Source: Asaia bogorensis
Lineage (GTDB): Bacteria > Pseudomonadota > Alphaproteobacteria > Acetobacterales > Acetobacteraceae
Direction of reading: 5' to 3'
Length of the DNA: 64,000 nucleotides
Assembly (NCBI RefSeq): GCF_900465345.1
Contig: NZ_UEGO01000035.1
Span: forward strand, 1 to 64,000
The notes under the pieces are model-generated. The model ran no database searches and had not been told where the DNA came from. It worked only from the letters and a program-made list of their open reading frames with translations. Shown piece after piece: positions 10,371 through 52,716 of this stretch (positions are counted from its first letter, which is position 1; each line of letters starts with the position of its first letter). Made by a program: the position numbers and the translations under genes.

Positions 10371-12209
10371 TCAATAGCGCTTGCGCGACGAGCCCTTGCC
10401 GTTGCCGACCGAGTTGCCCTTGCGGAATGAAGGGCGGTCGCCGCGATCACCCCTGTCACCACCACGCTCACCTCTGTCGCCACCGCGATCGCCGCCACGG
10501 TCACCACCGCGGAAGCCACCCTTGCCACGGGGAGCAAAGCCACCCTCACGCGGGCGGCGCGGGCCGCGCGGCGGGGCAGAAGGGCCAGTCGGGGCGGAAG
10601 CCGGCTCGATCTTGGCTTCATCCGCATCGGCACCGGCAACGCAGGAGCGGAAACGCTCGGCGCTGTCAGGGGCAATCTCGAAGAGTGTGTGATCCGTGTC
10701 GATATGGATCGCACCGATCTCGCTCTTGGTCACACCACCCAGGCGGCAGATGAGGGGGACAAGCCATTTCGGGTCGGCACGTTCGGTACGACCAATGGCG
10801 AGGCTGAACCACTCACCGCCCATACGGTCCACCCGGCCTGTGAACTCGCGGGGTGCACGATCGTCGCGCATGCCACGGGCAGGGGCGTCGACGCTGACCG
10901 GACGGATCGACTCGACGCTCGGCAGGCGGCTCTTGTACAGGCGCACGAGGGCCGTTGCGAGCTGATGCGCGTCATGTGCATTTGCCAGCTGCGATGCCAG
11001 GGCATCTTCATTGGCCTGCGACGGCGCGAAAAGCGTCTCGTCTTCCATCAGGCGCTTGGCGTCCTGCTCAAGGATGGCATCGGCCGAAGGGACGCTTTCC
11101 CACTCGGCATTGCTGATCTTGGCAAAGGAGAGCAGGCGCTCAGCCTTGCGACGCTGGCTGACAGGCACCATGACCACGCAGGTGCCCTTGCGGCCTGCAC
11201 GGCCCGTACGGCCCGAACGGTGCAGCAATGTTGCTGCCTCGCTCGGCATATTGGCATGGATCACGAGTGAAAGTGCCGGAATGTCGATGCCACGTGCGGC
11301 CACGTCGGTTGCCACGCAAACGCGTGCCACACCCGAACGCAGGGCTTCGATGGCGCGCGAACGCTCGTTCTGGCCCATTTCGCCGGAGATGGCGACCGAG
11401 GCAAAGCCACGCTCGACCAGCGCTGCCTGCACCTGCGCGACCATGGCGCGGGTGTTGCAGAACAGCATGGCGGTCGGGCTCTCGTAATAACGCAGCACAT
11501 TGACGACACCGCGACCAATGTCATTCGGCGCTGTCAGCACGCATTTATACGTGATATCATCATGCTGCTTGGACGTGGAGACCGTGTTGATGCGCTCGGC
11601 GTTTTTCTGGAAGCGGCGCGCCAGATTGGCGATTTCCTTGGCAATGGTCGCCGAGAAAAGCAGCGTGCGGCGTTCGACCGGCGCGGCATCCAGAAGTTGC
11701 TCCAGCTCGTCGCGAAAGCCCAGATCGAGCATCTCGTCGGCTTCGTCCAGCACGACCACGCGCAGATCGGACAGGTTCAGGGCACCGCGCGACAGATGAT
11801 CGCACAGGCGGCCCGGCGTCCCCACAACGATATGGGCACCGTTTGACAGGTTGCGGGCTTCGCGACGGGCATCCGTGCCGCCAATGCAGCTGACGATACG
11901 CGCACCGGTCTCGGCATAAAGCCACTGAAGTTCGGTCTGCACCTGCAGGGCCAGTTCGCGCGTTGGTGCAACCACCAGAGCAAGCGGGCTGTTGGCAGGC
12001 GGAAGGCGCTCACTGCCCTCGGGAATGAGGGTCGGGGCAAAGGCGAGACCGAAAGCAACCGTCTTGCCCGATCCTGTCTGTGCGGAAACGAGGAGATCCC
12101 GTGTCTCAAGGCCTGGCTGCAGAACGGCTTCCTGCACGGCGGTCGGTGTTTCATAACCGCGTGCCGCCAGAGCGCGGCTTAGAGACGGTACGGTATCGGG
12201 AAAGGGCAT
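10371..12209 (-). CDS. DEAD-box RNA helicase with DbpA-type and RGG tail
   Basis: An ATP-dependent RNA helicase of the DeaD/CsdA type, expected to remodel rRNA or mRNA. Motifs appear in order: Q motif, AQTGSGKT (I), PTRELALQV (Ia), TPGRL, VLDEADEMLD (II), SAT (III), then ATDVAARGIDIP and HRSGRTGRAGRKG (V, VI). After about residue 470 comes a DbpA-like RNA-binding fold (VDRMGGEWFSLAIGR). The last 60 residues are an arginine-glycine-rich tail with repeated G-G-D-R units. The ATG at 12209 is the first ATG; an in-frame TTG lies five codons upstream. The long divergent gap to the FUSC gene may hold its promoter. I cannot distinguish deaD from rhlE-type naming by eye. Confidence 0.92.
   Translation of the reverse strand: MPFPDTVPSLSRALAARGYETPTAVQEAVLQPGLETRDLLVSAQTGSGKTVAFGLAFAPTLIPEGSERLPPANSPLALVVAPTRELALQVQTELQWLYAETGARIVSCIGGTDARREARNLSNGAHIVVGTPGRLCDHLSRGALNLSDLRVVVLDEADEMLDLGFRDELEQLLDAAPVERRTLLFSATIAKEIANLARRFQKNAERINTVSTSKQHDDITYKCVLTAPNDIGRGVVNVLRYYESPTAMLFCNTRAMVAQVQAALVERGFASVAISGEMGQNERSRAIEALRSGVARVCVATDVAARGIDIPALSLVIHANMPSEAATLLHRSGRTGRAGRKGTCVVMVPVSQRRKAERLLSFAKISNAEWESVPSADAILEQDAKRLMEDETLFAPSQANEDALASQLANAHDAHQLATALVRLYKSRLPSVESIRPVSVDAPARGMRDDRAPREFTGRVDRMGGEWFSLAIGRTERADPKWLVPLICRLGGVTKSEIGAIHIDTDHTLFEIAPDSAERFRSCVAGADADEAKIEPASAPTGPSAPPRGPRRPREGGFAPRGKGGFRGGDRGGDRGGDRGERGGDRGDRGDRPSFRKGNSVGNGKGSSRKRY
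10434..10508 (-). repeat. G-G-D-R coding repeats in helicase tail
   Basis: Tandem, imperfect nine- to twelve-base units encode about 25 residues of repeated GGDR/GDR, an RGG-box-like low-complexity RNA-binding tail. Such units can gain or lose copies by slippage. Confidence 0.8.
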
Positions 12210-42681: not shown

Positions 42682-44082
42682 TTACTGCTCGGCTCCGGCA
42701 GGATCGAAGCCCAGCGACGCCAGAACGAGCCTGTCCTCCCAGACATCATGCATCAGCGCGGGGAGAGAACCCAGCGTGGCAAGGGCAGGATCACGCAGCA
42801 TGATCCCGGCAAGGCGTGACTCCTTGAGGCGCACCCAGCACCAGATATCGCCATGAGGGCCCTCGACAGCGCCAATACCCTCCCCGGACCCGGATGTGTC
42901 CGCTGCCGGTGAGGGCAAAGGCACGCCGAAATCAGCGGCGATGCGGTCAATGCGTCTGAGCGAGTCACGTATCTCATCAAGGCGCAGGCATTGTCTGGCC
43001 CAGCCATCGCCACCAAGGCGCGAGCCTGCCCGGCCGGGAACGTGGCGCATGTCATCTTCGAGCTGGCGCAGGTCGAATGAACGTCCCGAAGCCCGACCGA
43101 CCAGCCCACCGAGGCACAGGGCCTGGGCACGGGCTGGGGGTATCGTTCCAAGTCCCTCCAGCGTCTCCGCCATCTGGAAATGCAACCCCTCGATGACAGG
43201 CAGGCGCGGCATCAGGGCATCATGGATGGCATGAGCAAGGCCGCAGATATCAACCCCTGCTGAAATGCCTTGTGGCGTGATCATGTCGGTCAGGCGGCGG
43301 CTGGTCCCGTGATGGGCGCATAGCCCTGCACAGAGATCCTCAGCAAGACTGGCATGAGTGGCCAGAAGGGCAAAGCCCGTCAGCTGTGCCATCTGGGCGA
43401 TATCGCGGCAATGAACCATGATACGCTCGATCTCCAGGAGGATCGTGCGGGCATCACGTATCCCGTCATCGGGAACGATGCCCAGGGCGTTCTCGATGGC
43501 ACGTGAATAGGCCAGAGGGGCGGCAACAAAAGCCGCTGCGTTGCTGCGCCCGATCAAACCCAGTGCCGCTTCTGGTTTCTGTCCCTTGAAGTGATGCATC
43601 AGGCCGATATGTGCGGCACCCGGCATGACCTTGCCACGTCCCCAGATGAAGGGAGCCATATCGGCATGCAAACTCTGCGCGAATGCCAGTGAGGGCGGAG
43701 TGTGATCCGGTGAGATGGAAGCAGGGACGGATCGTGCGGATAAAGGGGCAATGCTTGCCCAGCCGCCCCGGTCCAGCGCGGGCTCGTTGTCGATTGCTCC
43801 AAGGGGAAGGCAACCCCAAAGATCCTGCGCGATGCGTTCGGGCCAGGAGGCGCAAGGCAGAGCCGCCGACAGGGCGAAATAACGCCCGTCGATCAGCTCC
43901 GTACTGACCACAAGCGGTGTCTCTTGGTCGAGGAAGAGTGCATAGGCACGCAGGTCATCGCACCAATGGGCGATGAACCAGCCGGGTGCCGCTGCAATCA
44001 TCTCACGCCACTGCGTCTCATCAAGGCTGTAATGATTGGGTGTCAGGCGCTCGCCGGCCCTGATGAGGGCGATCATGCTCAT
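42682..44082 (-). CDS. HyfG/NuoCD-like large subunit without NiFe ligands
   Basis: A 466-residue relative of formate hydrogenlyase large subunit (HycE/HyfG, fused NuoC and NuoD). The NuoC-like part ends with ERIAQDLWGCLPLGAIDNEPALDRGGW (82-108), and the NuoD-like core has AIENALGI (195-202) and RTILLEIERI (212-221), both diagnostic. The first NiFe motif RVCGICG should lie just before; here the stretch is GRSNAAAFVAAP with no cysteine. The second motif SLDPCxxC is SLGFDPAGAE, again without cysteines. So it cannot hold a NiFe centre; it may be a scaffold. It ends a five-gene operon; its start overlaps the preceding stop as ATGA. Confidence 0.8.
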   Translation of the reverse strand: MSMIALIRAGERLTPNHYSLDETQWREMIAAAPGWFIAHWCDDLRAYALFLDQETPLVVSTELIDGRYFALSAALPCASWPERIAQDLWGCLPLGAIDNEPALDRGGWASIAPLSARSVPASISPDHTPPSLAFAQSLHADMAPFIWGRGKVMPGAAHIGLMHHFKGQKPEAALGLIGRSNAAAFVAAPLAYSRAIENALGIVPDDGIRDARTILLEIERIMVHCRDIAQMAQLTGFALLATHASLAEDLCAGLCAHHGTSRRLTDMITPQGISAGVDICGLAHAIHDALMPRLPVIEGLHFQMAETLEGLGTIPPARAQALCLGGLVGRASGRSFDLRQLEDDMRHVPGRAGSRLGGDGWARQCLRLDEIRDSLRRIDRIAADFGVPLPSPAADTSGSGEGIGAVEGPHGDIWCWVRLKESRLAGIMLRDPALATLGSLPALMHDVWEDRLVLASLGFDPAGAEQ

Positions 44083-45236
44083 GGGGCACTCCAGGAAAGA
44101 GCCCAGACCCGACTGGACTGGTGTACGAGGCCAAGTGCGAATGGTGTAGCCAGACCGAGGCCGAGCAGAGCAAGGACAAGCGTCCGGTCGCGCCAGTTTG
44201 CCGGCAGGCGCCACTCGAATGAGGCCCGACTGGCTGTCAGTCCCAGAGCTGCAAGGACAAGCAGGGCCGATATGACCCCAACGGCATCAAGACCCGCCAC
44301 AATCATGCATCCTGCTGCAAAACCCGGCCACGGAGGAAGGCTGCTCGTGATCCAGCGTCGCATGGATTCCGGGATATCCGGCTCGGCAGCAAGAGCCATT
44401 CCCGAACTGAGGAGCAGCAGCGAGGGGATCGGCCCTATGGGCAAGGCTGTGGCGACCGTAGCAAGGGCCACCAGTGGTCTTGAGCCGCCCTGACGTGACA
44501 GAACGCAAAGCCATAGCCCCGTCAGACCAGCCAGCAGTAGCACCACATGTGTAACCTCACGGCTGGGCAGACGAAGCATGAGCGACACAGCGCTCAGGCA
44601 TAAAAGCATGTCGGGCAGGGCCGCGACACGTTCGGGCCGCAATGTGCGTGTGTCGTGCCTTTCATCCGGCATGAGGCTTCGTGAAGGGAGGGTCGTACCG
44701 AGCCCTGCCAGAAGGCACAGACCGACTGCCAGAAAAAGGTCACCCAGACGCGATATGGCGAGGTCAGGGCTCATGGTTGTCAGGCTGGTTCCCAGCAGCG
44801 CGAGGATCAGCCCTGCGAGACGCATGCGCATCGAGTCCCAGGCCTGGCGCGCGCGTGTGGTTGCTAGGGTTTCCCGATAGGCCAGGATGAGTGCCGCGCA
44901 GGCTGTCAGGCATACCACGGTCAGAACGTCATGGGCGCAAAGGGCCAGGGTGATGATGCTGCCTGAGATGAAATCGAGACACAGGGTCAGGCGTGTCTGA
45001 CCCTTGCCCAGCGCCAGAGCGGGCGCGGTGCCCGCCAGCAGACATCCCCAGCGTGTCAGCAGATCCTGCCCCGGAAGGAGCGCGGTCAGGCAAACCGTGA
45101 GTGCCAGTCCGATGAGAGCGAAATGCCGGGCCGAGCGCATGGCCTGCGCTCGCGGCAGCAAAGCCAGGAGACACGCCGCCAGAAGCGGCCATGCTGGCAC
45201 CAAGAAGCGGGCAAGCTGATGAAGGGTCTCAGCCAT
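44079..45236 (-). CDS. HyfF-like membrane subunit (diverged)
   Basis: A 385-residue protein with about a dozen hydrophobic helices, in the place where hyfF (antiporter-like proton-pump subunit) sits in hyf operons. It is shorter than HyfF (about 520) and I cannot see the canonical charged residues (Glu on TM5, Lys on TM7/TM8, LPxW-type motifs), so proton pumping is doubtful. Identification rests mainly on gene order plus hydrophobicity. The ATG at 45236 overlaps the hyfE-like stop by eight bases; upstream in-frame sequence is not membrane-like. Confidence 0.5.
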   Translation of the reverse strand: MAETLHQLARFLVPAWPLLAACLLALLPRAQAMRSARHFALIGLALTVCLTALLPGQDLLTRWGCLLAGTAPALALGKGQTRLTLCLDFISGSIITLALCAHDVLTVVCLTACAALILAYRETLATTRARQAWDSMRMRLAGLILALLGTSLTTMSPDLAISRLGDLFLAVGLCLLAGLGTTLPSRSLMPDERHDTRTLRPERVAALPDMLLCLSAVSLMLRLPSREVTHVVLLLAGLTGLWLCVLSRQGGSRPLVALATVATALPIGPIPSLLLLSSGMALAAEPDIPESMRRWITSSLPPWPGFAAGCMIVAGLDAVGVISALLVLAALGLTASRASFEWRLPANWRDRTLVLALLGLGLATPFALGLVHQSSRVWALSWSAP

Positions 45237-45783
45237 GACCTGCCCCATCCATACGATGCCATGCGAGGCGCGGCATAAGCCAGCTGCCCAATGAGAGGAG
45301 CCCGATCCAGACAAGCGTTGTACCAAGCACCAGCGGCCAGCTATGCCTGTAGCCGCCCAATAGAAGCAGGCCATTGAGCGTGCAGAGCAGGGCGACCAGT
45401 TGCAAGAGAGGTGCGGCCAGGGAGGCTCCGCATAATCCGGCCAGGACTATACCGATGCAGATCAGTACCGGTATGCCGGGCGTCGCCACCAGCGCCGTCA
45501 AAAGTACGAGAATGATTGCCGCGCAGACAGCAAGACCCGCAGCCTGCTGGGCTGCGCGTCGCTCTCGTGGTTCACCCGAGCGCAAGGCGGCATGACGACG
45601 CAACGTGATGAGTCCGACCCCGTTGAGCACTGGTAGCAAGGCAAGAGCTGCAAGAGCGGGGGCACCATGCCCGATGCCCGAAACGCATGCCGCAGCGCAG
45701 GTGCCATGAAATGGCAGAATACGCGCATCCCGGCCAATAGCCGCCAGCGCGATGAGTAGGGTCAGACCCAGGAGAACAATCAC
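45229..45783 (-). CDS. HyfE-like membrane subunit (diverged)
   Basis: A 184-residue membrane protein with about six helices, similar in length and layout to HyfE (NuoK-like subunits, 216 residues in E. coli). A short match to HyfE is LVALLCTLNGLLLLGG near residue 145 (the L-E-N-G stretch of HyfE). It starts at a GTG that overlaps the hyfC-like stop as GTGA. The first strand is IVLLGLTLLIALAAIGRDA. Weak identification; order and overlaps carry it. Confidence 0.5.
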   Translation of the reverse strand: MIVLLGLTLLIALAAIGRDARILPFHGTCAAACVSGIGHGAPALAALALLPVLNGVGLITLRRHAALRSGEPRERRAAQQAAGLAVCAAIILVLLTALVATPGIPVLICIGIVLAGLCGASLAAPLLQLVALLCTLNGLLLLGGYRHSWPLVLGTTLVWIGLLSLGSWLMPRLAWHRMDGAGHG

Positions 45784-46688
45784 GCTGCAAGTCTCCCGGC
45801 GACAACCAGCAAGATGGCTGCGCCACTCAATACGAGAGCCAGCCTTGCCGACGGCAAGGGACGTATCATGCGCCAGGCTGTGGCAAGAATTACCAGAAGC
45901 CCCAGTTTGACCGGGGCGGCCAGACACCAGAGCAGGGCCAGTTGACCAGGAGGCGTTGTCGCTGTGGCGATCGAGTCCGGCCAGATCAGGTCAGCGACCA
46001 GCAGATACCAGCACATTGCTGAAAGATCGTGCTGGTACCGCAGCAGACTGCGATGGCGTCCTTCGGCGCCGGATATCAGCATTTCATGCCAAGACTGTGA
46101 CAAAAGCCGGCGGTTGAGAATCAGCAGCAAGGCTCCGGCGATGAACACCAGGCCACCCATCAGGGCAGGAGCTGGCTGAAGGAGACGCTGTTGCAACAAC
46201 CCGGTGATCGTTGCCGAACCCGGTAGCCCGACGGTGATCAGAGTGCCTGTCAGGGTAAGAAGGGAGACCAGAAAAAGCAGATCATGTCCCAGGGCACCAA
46301 CCGAGCTGGTCAGTCGAAGCTGTATCATGCGCGTCGGCGCGTGGGTCAGGGCCTGCGCCCAGACTGTTGCGCTCGAGATGATCAGCAACAGCCCGCAGGC
46401 CAGAGGCTCCGAGAGAAAGTGAAAGGGTATCTGGGTGGAGGCAAAAGGAAGGCTCAGCCCTGCGAGCAGTGTGGCACACAGCCCCATCCAGGATAGTGAT
46501 GAGATCGGCGTATTCTGTCGCCATCCGCCGCGCAGTTGTCGCCATCTCCAGCCGGGCCAAGGGCCATGACGCCCCGCCATGATGCGTTCTACAATGCATT
46601 GCAGATCGGTCAGGAATGGCGCGAGCAGGGCCAGACTCAGAATCTGGCCCAGCAGGACGCATAGCTGCAGGGCGACTGGAACGATCAT
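45780..46688 (-). CDS. HyfC/NuoH-like membrane subunit (diverged)
   Basis: A 302-residue membrane protein related to HycD/HyfC (NuoH, the subunit linking the peripheral and membrane arms). QILSLALLAPFLTDLQCIVERIMAGRHGPWPG near residue 15 matches the conserved helix 1 plus the R-R-G-P loop. The middle TSSVGALGHDLLFLVSLLTLTG matches the G-A-S-R-E region only loosely; the key acidic and arginine residues of the quinone cavity are not clearly kept. The ATG at 46688 overlaps the hyfB-like stop as ATGA. Confidence 0.6.
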   Translation of the reverse strand: MIVPVALQLCVLLGQILSLALLAPFLTDLQCIVERIMAGRHGPWPGWRWRQLRGGWRQNTPISSLSWMGLCATLLAGLSLPFASTQIPFHFLSEPLACGLLLIISSATVWAQALTHAPTRMIQLRLTSSVGALGHDLLFLVSLLTLTGTLITVGLPGSATITGLLQQRLLQPAPALMGGLVFIAGALLLILNRRLLSQSWHEMLISGAEGRHRSLLRYQHDLSAMCWYLLVADLIWPDSIATATTPPGQLALLWCLAAPVKLGLLVILATAWRMIRPLPSARLALVLSGAAILLVVAGRLAA

Positions 46689-48268
46689 GCCGTCCACCCC
46701 ATCCACGATAATGCAACGGCGATAAGCAACAGCCAGAGCACCAGGGCGTGGCGCGTGATGAACAGGTCGGGTCGAAGTGGCAGCAGACCCGCAGACCCGG
46801 GTGTGGTGCCACCGGCTCTGCTCTGGCGTAGCAGGACATGGCGGGTCAGGGTGATGCGCCGACGTATCGAGGCAAGCAGTCGTCGCGTGCTCCATGGAAG
46901 GCGGACCCGAAGCGCGGAAGATGGCCAGTCAGGTATGGGTGCCGATAGCGAGGGGAGGTGGGTGATGAAGGCCGGCGCAATGAGAGCCGGTATGAGAAAG
47001 ACCAGCGCCGGATACCAGAAGGCGCCATCACCTCCGGCAACTGACCATACCGGCCAACTACGCCAGAAATCCTGGGGAACGCCGGCGACGATCAGTATGG
47101 CAGCGTGCAGGAAGCCGATAAGCAACCCCGGGCATACGGACAGGCACAGTCCGAGAGTGAGTGAGGGAATTCCCCGAACCCCGAAAGAGACTGCAGCCTC
47201 GGCATTGTTGCCTGGCGCAGGATTGTTCCTGCCGGGGGATCCTGCGAGGTCTGATCGACATATCCGGGAAACGGTCTGCCATGAGGCGAGCCATGCCCTG
47301 ACCATGACGACACCGAGTGTCAGGCTGAGGATCATGCCGCCGGCCGTCCATGCAGGCGAGAGGCCGGTCAATCCATTGATCGCATGCAAACCGAGCCAGA
47401 AGGGCAGAAAGCCCGCCAGAGGTGGCAGCGGAGCTTGCAGAAAACAAGCCCTGCCTTTCAGCCCTTGCAGGGCGAGGGCAAGGATGAAGGCTTCACTCCC
47501 TGCAAGTGCACAATCAGCGAGGCCACCAGCGCGGGCGCTCAGCGCAATTCCCAGCAGGAAGAGAGGCCAGAAGGATAATGCTCGGGAGAGAGGAAGAAAG
47601 AGGGATAGGCTTCCCCCGATCAGGACAAGGCTGACAGGCCAGAACATGCCACCTTGTGCGAGCAGGGCTGGGACGAGCAGAGAATAGGCGAGAACAGGTG
47701 TTGCGGCGAAAGCAGGCAGGAGAGCCAACGCGGCGAACGGAACAAGCGGGCTCGATGATACGGTCTCCAGCGGCTGCACGATGGCGGCCGCGCCGGAAGT
47801 CACCGAGGAAAGGATGCCCCCTTTTACAGGCTGTGCGAACAGGGCTGTGGCGGCGAGACAGCAGGCGGCGGGGGCCAGAAGGCCTGTCTGCCATGCGCCG
47901 GACCACCATTTTCCAGCAGGTTCTCCGCGCTGTCCGCTGGGAAGGACAATATGGGCATGAGGATCGCTGCGGTTTGCCGCTGTCCGGTGACGGAAGGGCA
48001 GGCGCCCCTGGTTCTCAATCAGGCATGGCATGAAGCAGATCAGGGCGAGGGCCTGATTGTGACAGAGGAGACCTATCGCGCCGCAGGCGTCACCAAATGG
48101 GCCACATGCACGTTCGGGCGAGATCTGCTCCAGGCTCCACAGAACAATCCAGCAGGCGGCGAGAGGATTGAGCGCCAACGGCCCTAGCCGGGTGTCGTAC
48201 GCGCCGATGGCAGCCCAACATCCCAGGGCGATCTGGAGCGCAAGCAGAGCCGTGCGCAAGATTGCCAT
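46685..48268 (-). CDS. HyfB-like membrane subunit (diverged)
   Basis: A 527-residue membrane protein placed first in the operon, like HyfB (an antiporter-like NuoL/M/N relative, about 670 residues). The best match is the late stretch PLPPLAGFLPFWLGLHAINGLTGLSPAWTAGGMILSL, resembling the LPPLxGFxSEW motif. The earlier charged residues of proton pumps are not visible. The ATG at 48268 has a poor ribosome site, and the frame stays open about 35 codons upstream, encoding another hydrophobic segment (LLASTILVLLSACIVLRL) with no ATG/GTG start. The true N-terminus is therefore uncertain. Confidence 0.55.
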   Translation of the reverse strand: MAILRTALLALQIALGCWAAIGAYDTRLGPLALNPLAACWIVLWSLEQISPERACGPFGDACGAIGLLCHNQALALICFMPCLIENQGRLPFRHRTAANRSDPHAHIVLPSGQRGEPAGKWWSGAWQTGLLAPAACCLAATALFAQPVKGGILSSVTSGAAAIVQPLETVSSSPLVPFAALALLPAFAATPVLAYSLLVPALLAQGGMFWPVSLVLIGGSLSLFLPLSRALSFWPLFLLGIALSARAGGLADCALAGSEAFILALALQGLKGRACFLQAPLPPLAGFLPFWLGLHAINGLTGLSPAWTAGGMILSLTLGVVMVRAWLASWQTVSRICRSDLAGSPGRNNPAPGNNAEAAVSFGVRGIPSLTLGLCLSVCPGLLIGFLHAAILIVAGVPQDFWRSWPVWSVAGGDGAFWYPALVFLIPALIAPAFITHLPSLSAPIPDWPSSALRVRLPWSTRRLLASIRRRITLTRHVLLRQSRAGGTTPGSAGLLPLRPDLFITRHALVLWLLLIAVALSWMGWTA

Positions 48269-48531
48269 GCGGGTATCATGAACATTCTGTATCGTCAGCC
48301 TCAGGACGATACATGCAGACAGCAGGACAAGGATGGTGGATGCGAGCAGGGGGGATCCTGACAGGAAGGGGCGTTGAGGGCCTTCTTCTTAAACCAGTTT
48401 GATGCCTCGCCCAATCGTCTGATCACGTGATTCCCGGCGTCTGAGGTATCAGCTCTCGCGTCTCAGAGAAGTAAACCGACAGAGCCGTATTCCTGCCCCA
48501 ACACGTATCGTACCTTGGACCCGGAATGGAA

Positions 48532-48551
48532 AGCGCCTCCCCGGTGGCGCT
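48532..48551 (-). terminator. Weak hairpin after 91-residue ORF
   Basis: agcgcc and ggcgct form a six-pair stem with an eight-base loop just past the stop of the 91-residue gene; read on the minus strand it is followed by ttcc. Confidence 0.35.
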
Positions 48552-48558
48552 GACTGGA

Positions 48559-48834
48559 TCAGATATACATCGACTCCCCCGCACGCCTGTGAGCGAGATC
48601 GAGCAATTCATTGTCCGAATTGCCAAAAGCCTCGGGATCATAGATGACGGATTCGAGTTCAGGCTCGATCTGGGTCGAAAGCAGACGGCACCCGACCAGC
48701 TTGCCAAGATGTTCTGTGAAGCTGCGAAGCTGGATGCTGGGGATATGCGATACCCAGATCCGGCGATCTCTCTGAAACTGCTCGACCAGGTCGGGATGTA
48801 CAGCCATGAATTTGTCGAATTCTTCATGTGTCAT
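48559..48834 (-). CDS. Hypothetical 91-residue soluble protein
   Basis: No family recognised. The product is acidic and helical (MTHEEFDKFMAVHPDLVEQFQRDRRIW) with a balanced composition and normal GC-rich third positions, and ggaaag lies nine bases before the ATG, so it looks like a real gene. The opposite-strand open frame covering it has much poorer composition. The upstream stretch is AT-rich and could hold its promoter. It lies 290 bases upstream of the hyfB-like gene on the same strand, so it could be the first gene of that transcript, though the hairpin between them argues against. Confidence 0.5.
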   Translation of the reverse strand: MTHEEFDKFMAVHPDLVEQFQRDRRIWVSHIPSIQLRSFTEHLGKLVGCRLLSTQIEPELESVIYDPEAFGNSDNELLDLAHRRAGESMYI

Positions 48835-48952
48835 CTGGATCTGCTTTCCAATACAGCGGTGATGGTAGTTTATTTCATAAATATATCATCTGTGCATCGA
48901 ATACAAAACAAAGTGTTAAATCGTATTGTTCAGGGCCTGATGATGACAGTCG

Positions 48953-49798
48953 TCATATCATCTCAAGGGGCATTTTATGCTTTGGCGAAGGAAAATAATC
49001 GTTCAGCCGCGTCATGTCCTCTTCACGCAGGGTGATTGAAAGGGCAGCGATATTTTCCTGCATATGCCGGCGTGTGCCCGCCTTGGGAATCGAGAGGATT
49101 CCGGGCTTTCGCAAGGTCCACGCCAGCGCGATCTGTGCAGGTGTTGCAGGACCGGACCGGGTCTCGTGCTCTCTGGCAATTTCTGCGAGAACAGGCGCAT
49201 TCAGGAGTTCGCCTCCCTGTCCCAGCGGGGAATAGGCCATGGTTACAACCCTGCCCGCGCTATTATGCTCGATCAGGTCGAAATCGACGCCGCGTGCATC
49301 AAGATTATAGAGAATCTGATTGGCGGCGCATCCTGACGAGGTGTCTTCGAGCTCATGCATATCCTCTGTATCGAAGTTCGAGACACCCCAATGCCTGATA
49401 AGGCCCCGGCTGACGAGCGTCTCAAAGGCCTCGACAGTTTCCGCGAGGGGAACGCCACCCCGCCAATGCAGGAGATAAAGGTCGAGGAAACCCGTTCCCA
49501 GTCTTTTGAGGGATGCCTCACAGCTTCTGATTGTCCCCTCACGGGTGGCATTTGAAGGCAGAACCTTGCTGACAAGGAAGACGTCGGATCGCCGGTCGGC
49601 GATGGCTTCTCCAACAAGATGTTCGGAGCGTCCGCTCCCATACATCTCGGCGGTGTCAATCACCCGAAGACCCTGGTCGAGACCGCTGTGCAGGCTCGCA
49701 ATTTCCTCGGCTCTATGCGCCGTCGAGTCGCCAATATTCCAGCTTCCCATTCCTAGCGCGGGGACCACGTCACCACTGTCAAAGCGGACAGTTTGCAT
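48953..49798 (-). CDS. Aldo/keto reductase
   Basis: A 281-residue NAD(P)H-dependent oxidoreductase of the aldo/keto reductase TIM-barrel family. The catalytic tetrad is visible: Asp in VIDTAEMYGSGRSE with the tyrosine, Lys in VFLVSKVLPS and His in DLYLLHW. The signature LIRHWGVSNFD and C-terminal LSIPKAGTRRHMQEN cofactor loop are present. The ATG at 49798 with ggag seven bases upstream fits the family start (MQTVRFDSG). Substrate unknown. It is divergent from the bicupin gene across 184 bases. Confidence 0.93.
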   Translation of the reverse strand: MQTVRFDSGDVVPALGMGSWNIGDSTAHRAEEIASLHSGLDQGLRVIDTAEMYGSGRSEHLVGEAIADRRSDVFLVSKVLPSNATREGTIRSCEASLKRLGTGFLDLYLLHWRGGVPLAETVEAFETLVSRGLIRHWGVSNFDTEDMHELEDTSSGCAANQILYNLDARGVDFDLIEHNSAGRVVTMAYSPLGQGGELLNAPVLAEIAREHETRSGPATPAQIALAWTLRKPGILSIPKAGTRRHMQENIAALSITLREEDMTRLNDYFPSPKHKMPLEMI

Positions 49799-49982
49799 TG
49801 GAAACTCCTGTTTATCCTGCGATTCCAAGCGCCACAGCGTCATCAGCGTTCATCTGCCTTGGGTAAAGAATAATCACGAATTCGTGATTTCATGCGGCCT
49901 TTTTCTACTTTGGCGTTAGTCTGACGGGGAGACACGCACCGCCCCACGCAAAATCCCTGCGTTCCTGGAGAGGAGGCCGGTC

Positions 49983-51005
49983 ATGGCGTCTTTCGACCGT
50001 ACCGTTTTTCAGCGCTTTCTTGGCGTTGCCCCGATGGGCGGTGCGGGATTGTTCGCCGTTCGACGTGCAGCAAGCGATGCCACGCCGGCTCTCAGGACGA
50101 AGACACGCCGTTTGACGCACTGTCCGGTCGTGCAGCAGGAGGAAGGGTGGTCCTGGTCCGAGCGGATTGCGCCTTTCGGTATACAGGGCGTCCGCATCAG
50201 TCATCATTCCCTGGGTGACGCGACGGATGGCGCAGCAACTGCCTGCCCTGCGAAAGGCTGGGGCATGGTCATAGCCGGGTGCGCCACGCTCAATATGAGA
50301 CACCACGCAAAGGCGGCGATTCATAGTGAAACGCTGGCTGAGGGTGATGTATGGAGCGTTCCTGCCGCGGCCAATGCCTGGTTTCACTGCATTGGCTCAG
50401 AGCAGGCCAGTATCGTCGCCTTTACGGGAGGGCGCGAGACGGAGAGGGATGCTGGCACCTGGCCGGATTCCTGTCTCGACGCGAAGATGATCAGCCCCGG
50501 ATTGCATCATTGCCTTCTGAAACAGGAAGCGCAGCGAACCTGCTGGGGAAGTCTCAGGGTTGTCGAGGCTGACGCATTCAGCGACCCTGACGCGCTCTCG
50601 GCGGCACTGGTCGAGATCGAGCCAGGCTGCCGCACCGACCTGCACTGGCATCTCAATACATCCGTATGGCAGATATGCCTGGATGGAGCAGGTCAGCTTA
50701 CCCGGTTTCCCAAAGGGGGTGGCCAGCATAGCACAGCCCTTCGACCGGGCATGATGGCCCATATTCCGCGTGGCGAGGGGCATCTCATCAGTAATGAAGA
50801 CGGTCGCGCGATAAGAATGCTCGAAATATTTCCGTCAGACCACTATCACGACCTGTCGCTCCTGCAATGGCTTGAAGCAAGTTCAGTGGAGGATATTGCA
50901 GCCCATCTGGGCGTCGATATAGAGGTTGTCGCCGATCTCGCGCGTTGTGGGAGGCAGCCACTTGGTCAGGCTCATGTTTTTCCCGTGCCGCATGGTTCGC
51001 ATTGA
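49983..51005 (+). CDS. Oxalate decarboxylase-like bicupin lacking metal ligands
   Basis: A 340-residue two-cupin protein close to oxalate decarboxylase (OxdC). The C-terminal cupin has HWHLNTSVWQ (H221, H223) and HIPRGEGHLI, plus the tail LEIFPSDHYHDLSLLQWL. In OxdC the Mn site needs H-x-H, then Glu (HWHPNTHEWQ) and a later His; here the Glu is Val (V228). The N-terminal cupin, where OxdC has its active manganese, has no H-x-H at all. So oxalate decarboxylation is unlikely, and the protein may be a binding or structural relative. A strong ggagaggagg site precedes the ATG. Confidence 0.8.
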   Translation: MASFDRTVFQRFLGVAPMGGAGLFAVRRAASDATPALRTKTRRLTHCPVVQQEEGWSWSERIAPFGIQGVRISHHSLGDATDGAATACPAKGWGMVIAGCATLNMRHHAKAAIHSETLAEGDVWSVPAAANAWFHCIGSEQASIVAFTGGRETERDAGTWPDSCLDAKMISPGLHHCLLKQEAQRTCWGSLRVVEADAFSDPDALSAALVEIEPGCRTDLHWHLNTSVWQICLDGAGQLTRFPKGGGQHSTALRPGMMAHIPRGEGHLISNEDGRAIRMLEIFPSDHYHDLSLLQWLEASSVEDIAAHLGVDIEVVADLARCGRQPLGQAHVFPVPHGSH

Positions 51006-51327
51006 CACAACATGGCTCGCGGCATGTGATATCGGCGGACAGTCTCGCGCCATACATTGCATGGTCGAAACAGCCTGCGCGTTGCTGCCACGAAAAGGAC
51101 TGGGATCTGGGATCGCATGCATGATGCGGCTGTCTTTTTTGGACCGAACCCCAGGCGCTATGGTTGACGCGGCGAAACCATCTATGGTGGACCAGTGACC
51201 TGTTTCTTGCACCCCGCGATATGGGGCCTGATTGAAATAGTGTCTGAACCTGTCACGCGGCAGATTTTCGAGCTACCGGACTGCCGAACCGCCATAGACC
51301 TCACGATGAGCGAGCCCTGAGACATTA
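51006..51327. other. 322-base intergenic region, no gene seen
   Basis: Between the bicupin gene and sdaA. A 90-codon plus-strand frame overlapping the bicupin end lacks a ribosome site and protein-like composition. I see no clear promoter or palindrome; the sdaA leader is probably within it. Confidence 0.4.
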
Positions 51328-52716
51328 ATGATCAGCCTTTTTGACCTTTTCAAGATAGGTATCGGTCCCTCATCCTCTCACACGGTTGGTCCCATGCGCG
51401 CAGCGCAGCGCTTTGCTATCGGGCTGGCAGAAACTGGTCATATGGGCTCTCTGTCCAGGATCGTGCGACTACGCGTCACACTTTATGGCTCTCTCGCCTG
51501 GACGGCCAAGGGTCATGCAACTGACAAGGCTGTCATTCTGGGTCTGTGTGGTGAACTGCCCCAGACGATCGACCCCGATCAGGCAGATGGAATCGTGGAG
51601 CGCGTCATTCGAACGAAGCATGTCGGATGGGGTGACTGGTTCATCCCGTTCGATCCCGATCATGATCTTGTCCTTGATCGGGAGACCGTGCCACCGGTCC
51701 ATCCGAATACCCTGCAATTCGAGGCGCTCTCGGCAGAAGGCATCGTGCTGGAATCTGCCCGTTTCTGCTCGGTTGGTGGGGGATTTATTGTCTCTGAAAG
51801 TGTGACGGAGGCCGCAGGCTACTCTCAGCCTGATGTGCCTTATCCCTTTACCAGCGGCGCGGAATTGCTGGAACAGGCACGCATCCATGGGCTGAGTATC
51901 GCGGAGCTTGTCATGGCCAATGAATGTGCCCTGCGGCCACGCTCGGAAGTCGAGCAGTATCTCGACGAGATCATCGCTGTCATGATGGCCTGTATCGAGC
52001 GCGGTATCGTGCAAAAGGGTATCCTGCCCGGCAGGCTCAGGGTACGGCGTCGCGCCCCCGCCCTTCATGAAAAACTCTGCGCCCATGAACGTGGTAATAT
52101 GCGGTCGGCCCATGCCATCATGGACTGGATCAGCCTGTTTGCCATCGCGGTGAATGAGGAAAACGCGGCAGGTGGGCGTGTCGTGACGGCCCCGACAAAT
52201 GGTGCAGCTGGCATCATACCCTCGGTCCTGCGTTATTACCGTGACTATTGCGCGCCGCTGGCGTCGGCAGACACGATCCCGGCGATGCGGGAATTCTTGC
52301 TGACCGCCTCGGCTATTGGTGGACTGTTCAAACTCAATGCCTCGATTTCCGGCGCAGAGGTCGGTTGTCAGGGAGAAGTGGGCGTTGCGTCATCCATGGC
52401 AGCAGCGGGATTGACAGCCGCTCTGGGAGGGACCCCCGAGCAGATCGAGGATGCTGCCGAGATCGGGATGGAACATCATCTGGGCATGACATGCGATCCG
52501 GTCGCCGGTCTGGTTCAGATACCCTGTATCGAGCGTAATGCCTTTGGTGCGGTCAAGGCGGTGAATGCAGCTTCACTCGCCCTGAATGGTGACGGAGCCC
52601 ATCTTGTGTCGCTGGATCAGGTCATTCGCACGATGGCGGAAACCGGTCGCGACATGAACCAGCGTTACAAGGAAACGTCGCTTGGCGGCCTTGCGGTGAA
52701 TCTGCCGGAGTGTTGA
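51328..52716 (+). CDS. sdaA: L-serine ammonia-lyase, iron-sulfur type
   Basis: Converts L-serine to pyruvate and ammonia using a [4Fe-4S] cluster. The N-terminal beta domain starts [25 protein letters not shown] (family signature), and the alpha domain has [58 protein letters not shown] with the cluster cysteines. The protein ends in cysteine (NLPEC), as in the single-chain (type II) enzymes whose C-terminal Cys plugs the active site. Length 462 residues. The ribosome site is weak. It stands alone. Confidence 0.96.

Follow-up and report, generated by a model that had tools for sequence, protein, structure and literature searches.

A predicted Ehr-type membrane complex of Asaia bogorensis with an unlinked iron-sulfur subunit, no NiFe ligands and no antiporter channel motifs

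Gene sets that resemble those of group 4 hydrogenases and lack the NiFe site have been described as energy-converting-hydrogenase-related (Ehr) complexes (PMC10284858, PMC12342949, PMC7894505, PMC6349859). In the available text of these papers, the function of Ehr is called unknown (PMC10284858, PMC12342949), and charge translocation is suspected owing to the antiporter-like subunits (PMC6349859). As far as that text describes them, the Ehr sets of Geobacter sulfurreducens (GSU0739-45) and Nitrospira combine a large and a small subunit with NuoL-like and HyfE-like membrane subunits, and have no NiFe ligands. In the Acetobacteraceae, the accessible part of a further paper reports that a bc1 complex and a COX1-like protein have been kept after the loss of their metal ligands (PMC10715153); its main text makes no mention of 'hyf' or 'ehr'. 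A literature search, which reached few subscription papers, returned no description of an Ehr-like complex in acetic acid bacteria. What the genes described here share with the deranged bc1 complex and COX1-like protein, as portrayed in that source, is the retention of respiratory proteins whose metal ligands are gone.

The window analysed is a stretch of 64,000 nucleotides from Asaia bogorensis (NCBI RefSeq assembly GCF_900465345.1, contig NZ_UEGO01000035.1, positions 1 to 64,000 of the forward strand). Its minus strand carries, from 48268 to 42682, five stop-free open reading frames that overlap by a few bases and follow the gene order of hyf operons, B-C-E-F-G, as an initial annotation of the sequence had proposed:

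46685..48268, minus strand: B, 527 aa, HyfB/NuoL-like membrane subunit, shortened, channel motifs absent
45780..46688, minus strand: C, 302 aa, HyfC/NuoH-like membrane subunit
45229..45783, minus strand: E, 184 aa, HyfE-like membrane subunit
44079..45248 (or 45236), minus strand: F, 389 or 385 aa, HyfF/NuoN-like membrane subunit, channel motifs absent
42682..44082, minus strand: G, 466 aa, HyfG/HycE-like large subunit (NuoC and NuoD parts), without NiFe cysteines

Read directly in the sequence, the junctions are ATGA for B/C, GTGA for C/E and ATGA for F/G; E and F overlap by 8 bases if F starts at 45236 and by 20 bases if it starts at 45248. The listed open reading frames of C, E, F and G were longer than these best models, because the list took the first possible start codon. 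Taken singly, the window's B, C, E and F gave no credible Pfam match, and a promoter and terminator scan of the locus returned nothing informative. That the operon is more than a chance arrangement follows from the NuoD match of G, the HycE match of the G family profile and the recurrence of the same gene order across genera, in many genomes.

The large subunit was compared with hydrogenases at their CxxC and DPCxxC motifs. In G the place of the first CxxC reads GRSNAAAFVAAPL, the C-terminus reads LGFDPAGAEQ at the place of DPCxxC, and no CxxC occurs anywhere in the protein, which bears out the earlier observation that both NiFe cysteine pairs are gone. The NuoC and NuoD landmarks pointed out at the same time are present, with matches to the NuoD model (4.4e-13) and to PF00346 (1.1e-06). 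The G family profile scored best against HycE (7z0s_E, 1.8e-51), ahead of MbhL (1.4e-46) and Nqo4 (4.4e-41). Any CxxC is likewise missing from the aligned G proteins of the family (0/23); judged from this alignment, the loss of the NiFe site is old and common to all 23 relatives, and is not peculiar to the Asaia operon. About half of the conserved charged residues of G are kept.

For the membrane subunits, homology is clearest in an outgroup operon (G143, L082), whose genes match the curated models of HyfB (6.3e-172), NuoH (1.8e-15), HyfE (3e-20), HyfF (5.1e-158), NuoD (9.9e-53) and NuoB (1.5e-36), the C copy also matching NADHdh (1.5e-35). Profiles of C, E, G and I built from the window's group reach the outgroup copies. 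The derived B and F profiles reached neither the channel-intact nor the outgroup copies, so that a column-by-column alignment of these two subunits is uncertain, and since they also found nothing credible among PDB sequences we turned to structure. The predicted structures of B and F match HycC and NuoL/M/N, with HycC the best match of B, and it is by position and predicted fold that B and F are tied to the outgroup copies. The initial annotation was to be abandoned if the membrane proteins proved unrelated to NuoL folds; for B and F these folds were recovered.

The residues that would carry protons through such folds have fared differently across the family. Antiporter Lys/Glu/His motifs are kept in some relatives, the F Lys motif in 20 of the 71 tree rows, and none was found in B or F of Asaia and the other acetous genera sampled (60 rows). 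Among the other two membrane subunits, C keeps 7 of 33 conserved charged columns, the same rate as for aliphatic ones (14/69), and E keeps none of 13; in B and F the loss of charged residues exceeds their general divergence by a modest margin only. The description of the membrane subunits as shortened and eroded therefore holds, B and F being shortened and charged residues lost. That C has lost most of its conserved charged residues argues against a quinone step in the complex. The remaining sequence of B is constrained, since an alignment of 24 derived sequences contains the invariant residues P282, G286, W291 and H295 and a near-invariant GGDG at 412-415. A complex that was still an ion pump, with replacement charges carrying protons in altered B, F, C and E, could draw on the folds kept in predicted B and F, on the invariant H295 and near-invariant D414 of B and on the near-invariant R141 of F. 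These three are, however, the only charged or His residues conserved to at least 90% in derived B (24 sequences) and F (26), and no conserved Lys/Glu pair is left in either alignment, which makes continued pumping improbable.

As the initial annotation had recognised, no PF01058 (NuoB/HyfI) gene lies within the window, and it was on this absence that a new complex without any small subunit had been proposed. In the whole genome, PF01058 has two matches, C5:69432, beyond the end of the window, and C34:271235. The first is part of a nuo-like operon (operon genes named by eye) whose start lies about 5 kb beyond the window; the second falls in the following gene:

C34:271130-271609 (= L004:9131-9610): I, 160 aa, HyfI/NuoB-like small subunit, PF01058 6.1e-22

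The protein carries CDGC, GDC and GCPP, and with them the four cluster cysteines, and it aligns with the I gene in the operons of relatives; a comparison of 18 derived I sequences showed all four cysteines in each. The genome thus does contain a small iron-sulfur subunit, and the discovery of a four-cysteine orthologue outside the window effectively rules out a complex without one.

The position of I relative to G varies across the family. Measured between profile edges, it follows G at 81-308 bp in 62 of the 80 named loci, at 1.0-1.2 kb in three and at about 4 kb in seven, from Bombella and one relative. Near G it was not found in eight loci: six (Asaia, Swaminathania, Acidomonas) with 9 kb of downstream sequence covered, and two others with 1.1 kb or 69 bp covered. 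In the window's genome I overlaps nadQ by ATGA, followed by genes that we take to be nadA, nadB and nadC. NadQ was assigned through its NrtR-type winged-helix domain, an identification that the available text of PMC5343134 supports. Two genomes (G025, G079) have the order G, an opposite-strand NUDIX gene, I and nadQ, which is an intermediate arrangement. Their NUDIX gene shares 53% identity with its counterpart next to I in the genome of the window. I precedes nadQABC in seven of the eight unlinked genomes examined, G037 being the exception, and nadQ directly follows I in nine genomes examined. A different nad neighbourhood is found in Bombella, Saccharibacter and relatives (L132-L143, L146), whose nad genes are convergent with I at a distance of a few kb. 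Control of I by NadQ was considered and set aside, because the only perfect NadQ-type operator in L004, ATGCTCATATAGAGCAT at 10624-10640, sits between nadQ and nadA and not before I; the window has no such site with 0 mismatches.

This linkage invites a reading in which the complex would pass no electrons to quinone and would act as a non-redox scaffold or sensor, its cluster sensing redox state or iron, its membrane part serving as an anchor, and the whole perhaps linked by the I-nadQ operon to the supply of NAD. The ATGA overlap with nadQ and the nine genomes with I directly before it fit such a role, as do the lost charged residues of the membrane subunits and one lineage that has lost cluster ligands and keeps the I frame. 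Against this, a nad gene occurs in the covered DNA of only 14 of the 80 named loci, none of them from Gluconobacter, Gluconacetobacter or the outgroup, the one perfect operator in L004 is not placed before I, and the four cysteines are retained in all 18 derived I sequences compared; we consider a sensor or scaffold rather unlikely.

Across 150 family genomes, a hand tally found both G and I in 122, neither in 25, G only in two (G031, G069) and I only in one (G009). The threshold for counting I as present was E <= 1e-16, since values of 7.5e-9 to 7.6e-15, presumably from nuoB, occur in genomes without G. In eight genomes I is the sole PF01058 gene, so complex I is not needed for its retention, and a role of the Ehr set as an accessory of complex I is unlikely. 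In one locus (L083, genome G100), I has lost three of its four cluster cysteines and its frame is still open, a further stripped version of the subunit.

Set against the features of Ehr, the large subunit is without NiFe CxxC pairs (23 of 23 G proteins) and matches the HycE profile, an unlinked small subunit with iron-sulfur ligands is present, its association with the rest being predicted from sequence, and antiporter-like and HyfE-like membrane subunits are recognisable by homology or fold, with a NuoL/M/N antiporter-like fold in the predicted structures of B and F. Ion-channel residues in the antiporter subunits, which relate to the suspected function and do not formally define Ehr, are absent from B and F. 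By its predicted parts, the operon together with I is an Ehr-type complex, a known kind of complex of unknown function. The proposal of a new complex that is neither a hydrogenase nor ordinary complex I thus stands as regards the chemistry; as regards novelty it does not, the Ehr class having already been described. Unlike Ehr elsewhere, in so far as the available text describes it, the Asaia set has lost the channel motifs, has shortened B and F, and has its small-subunit gene outside the operon. What is new here is the degree of stripping: a channel-dead Ehr with a relocated small subunit.

Formate hydrogenlyase and hydrogenases 3 and 4 (HycE, HycC; HyfB-C-E-F-G-I) have the same types of subunit, G being most similar to HycE and B to HycC. 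The Asaia operon differs from them in lacking NiFe cysteines and a further iron-sulfur subunit (it includes no NuoI/HyfH-like gene), and the two NiFe-binding CxxC pairs by which a group 4 [NiFe] hydrogenase is recognised are absent. HypD, a marker of Hyp maturation, had no match in the window's genome and was missing, in all, from 27 of 30 genomes, being found in three. With respiratory complex I (NuoCD, B, H, K, L/M/N), families or folds are common for G, I, C and F, whereas the Asaia five-gene operon has neither an NADH module nor NuoB, and the nuo-like operon is separate.

Retention was assessed by dN/dS (Nei-Gojobori, pairs with 0.1 < dS < 1, the pairs not being independent). In Gluconobacter, with 105 pairs for each gene, the medians (usable pairs in brackets) were 0.17 for B (42), 0.12 for C (47), 0.05 for E (63), 0.09 for F (51), 0.08 for G (49) and 0.06 for I (48); in Bombella, where 2-8 of 15 pairs were usable, they were 0.06-0.16. 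These ratios show purifying selection on each of the six genes in both genera, and the selection suggested for the operon is borne out in relatives. Within Asaia, the dS of the five operon genes is mostly saturated: among the 21 Asaia/Swaminathania pairs, a single one was usable for G (0.08), and B, C, E and F had no usable pair. For I of the window's genome, dN/dS was 0.05, 0.09 and 0.11 against G149, G085 and G008, the last at a dS of 1.7.

Broken frames in relatives, which the initial annotation had named as a sign of decay, were seen in G of two loci, L077 (G126), where it lies in three overlapping pieces, and the Asaia astilbis draft (L110), where it lies in two; sequencing error is possible in both. 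For G126 we do not claim that I decays along with G, since I has an open frame there that begins at a start codon right behind its TAG. These breaks, the lack of a G match in 26 of the 150 genomes and the shortened, diverged B and F would be expected of a relic in slow decay, an Ehr being lost from acetic acid bacteria whose frames are open only by recent ancestry. Such a relic should not show the low dN/dS medians of Gluconobacter (0.05-0.17) and Bombella, frames that stay open across Asaia species at dS above 1, residues of B such as H295 and GGDG that are invariant or nearly so, or a gene order kept across genera, and we judge it unlikely.

We tentatively favour an iron-sulfur redox complex that is retained and anchored in the membrane but uncoupled, a mechanism that we infer as follows. 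B to G and the unlinked I would together make up a single complex of the Ehr type, with a HyfBCEFGI-like membrane enzyme as its ancestor, as their homology, their linkage in relatives and their joint presence suggest. The sequences show that in acetic acid bacteria the membrane arm has lost the conserved charged residues through which NuoL/M/N, HyfB and HyfF conduct protons, and that the peripheral pair G-I keeps the [4Fe-4S] ligands and about half of the conserved charged residues. I may take single electrons from a putative cytoplasmic donor into its cluster, from which they could pass through a pocket between G and C to quinone, or be stored, with B, C, E and F serving mainly as membrane anchor and scaffold and pumping no ions. 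The signs of decay in G, together with the loss of cysteines in G100 and the absence of a NuoI/HyfH-like gene from the operon, count against this redox reading. In a fuller and more speculative version, a six-subunit relative of complex I may have changed from pumping ions to uncoupled redox catalysis at the membrane, with all subunits retained and under selection, the pump residues gone from four membrane subunits, one [4Fe-4S] cluster, the cluster subunit moved into an NAD-biosynthesis operon and an aldo/keto reductase joined to the membrane operon. If the complex works, it would be a natural experiment on complex I, revealing which parts stay useful without proton channels and metal site, with a series from channel-intact to channel-dead relatives inside one bacterial family. 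Alongside the bc1 complex and COX1-like protein (PMC10715153), it would be one more example of Acetobacteraceae respiratory machinery outliving its core chemistry, and the cultivable hosts, Gluconobacter and Asaia, would open the function of Ehr to testing.

The aldo/keto reductase gene lies upstream of B in the window:

48953..49843, minus strand: aldo/keto reductase gene, PF00248 1.7e-51

Such a gene, on the same strand and upstream of B, is found in 33 of the 69 tree rows with enough upstream DNA, namely in 33 of 50 channel-dead rows versus 0 of 19 channel-intact ones (F Lys motif). Its distance from the stop-to-stop B frame is mostly 19-170 bases; in Asaia it is about 580-820, and no match was obtained at the Asaia astilbis locus. 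A link with channel loss was not upheld, as six changes on the tree make few independent events and a paired test was not significant, and the reductase is only a hypothetical partner of the channel-dead complex.

Other features of the surroundings were also recorded. Compared with a second genome of the genus (G149), positions 43500-52000 of the window form a tract 60-81% identical, against 90-98% in neighbouring 500-base bins, with one edge within G and the other within the gene at 51328-52716. From this identity profile, the tract looks as if recombination had replaced the local allele, in either of the two strains, with that of a distant Asaia lineage. Hopanoid genes HpnA, HpnC and HpnB (NCBIfam, three loci) lie near the operon in the flanks of L152, L174, L175 and others; of the non-acetous loci compared, 7 of 17 with intact channels and 5 of 14 with dead channels share these flank clusters. 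A G unlike that of Asaia occurs on L173 and L176, two MAG contigs labelled Asaia bogorensis, the former matching at 34% and the latter grouping with channel-intact tree rows; both are probably mislabelled or foreign bins.
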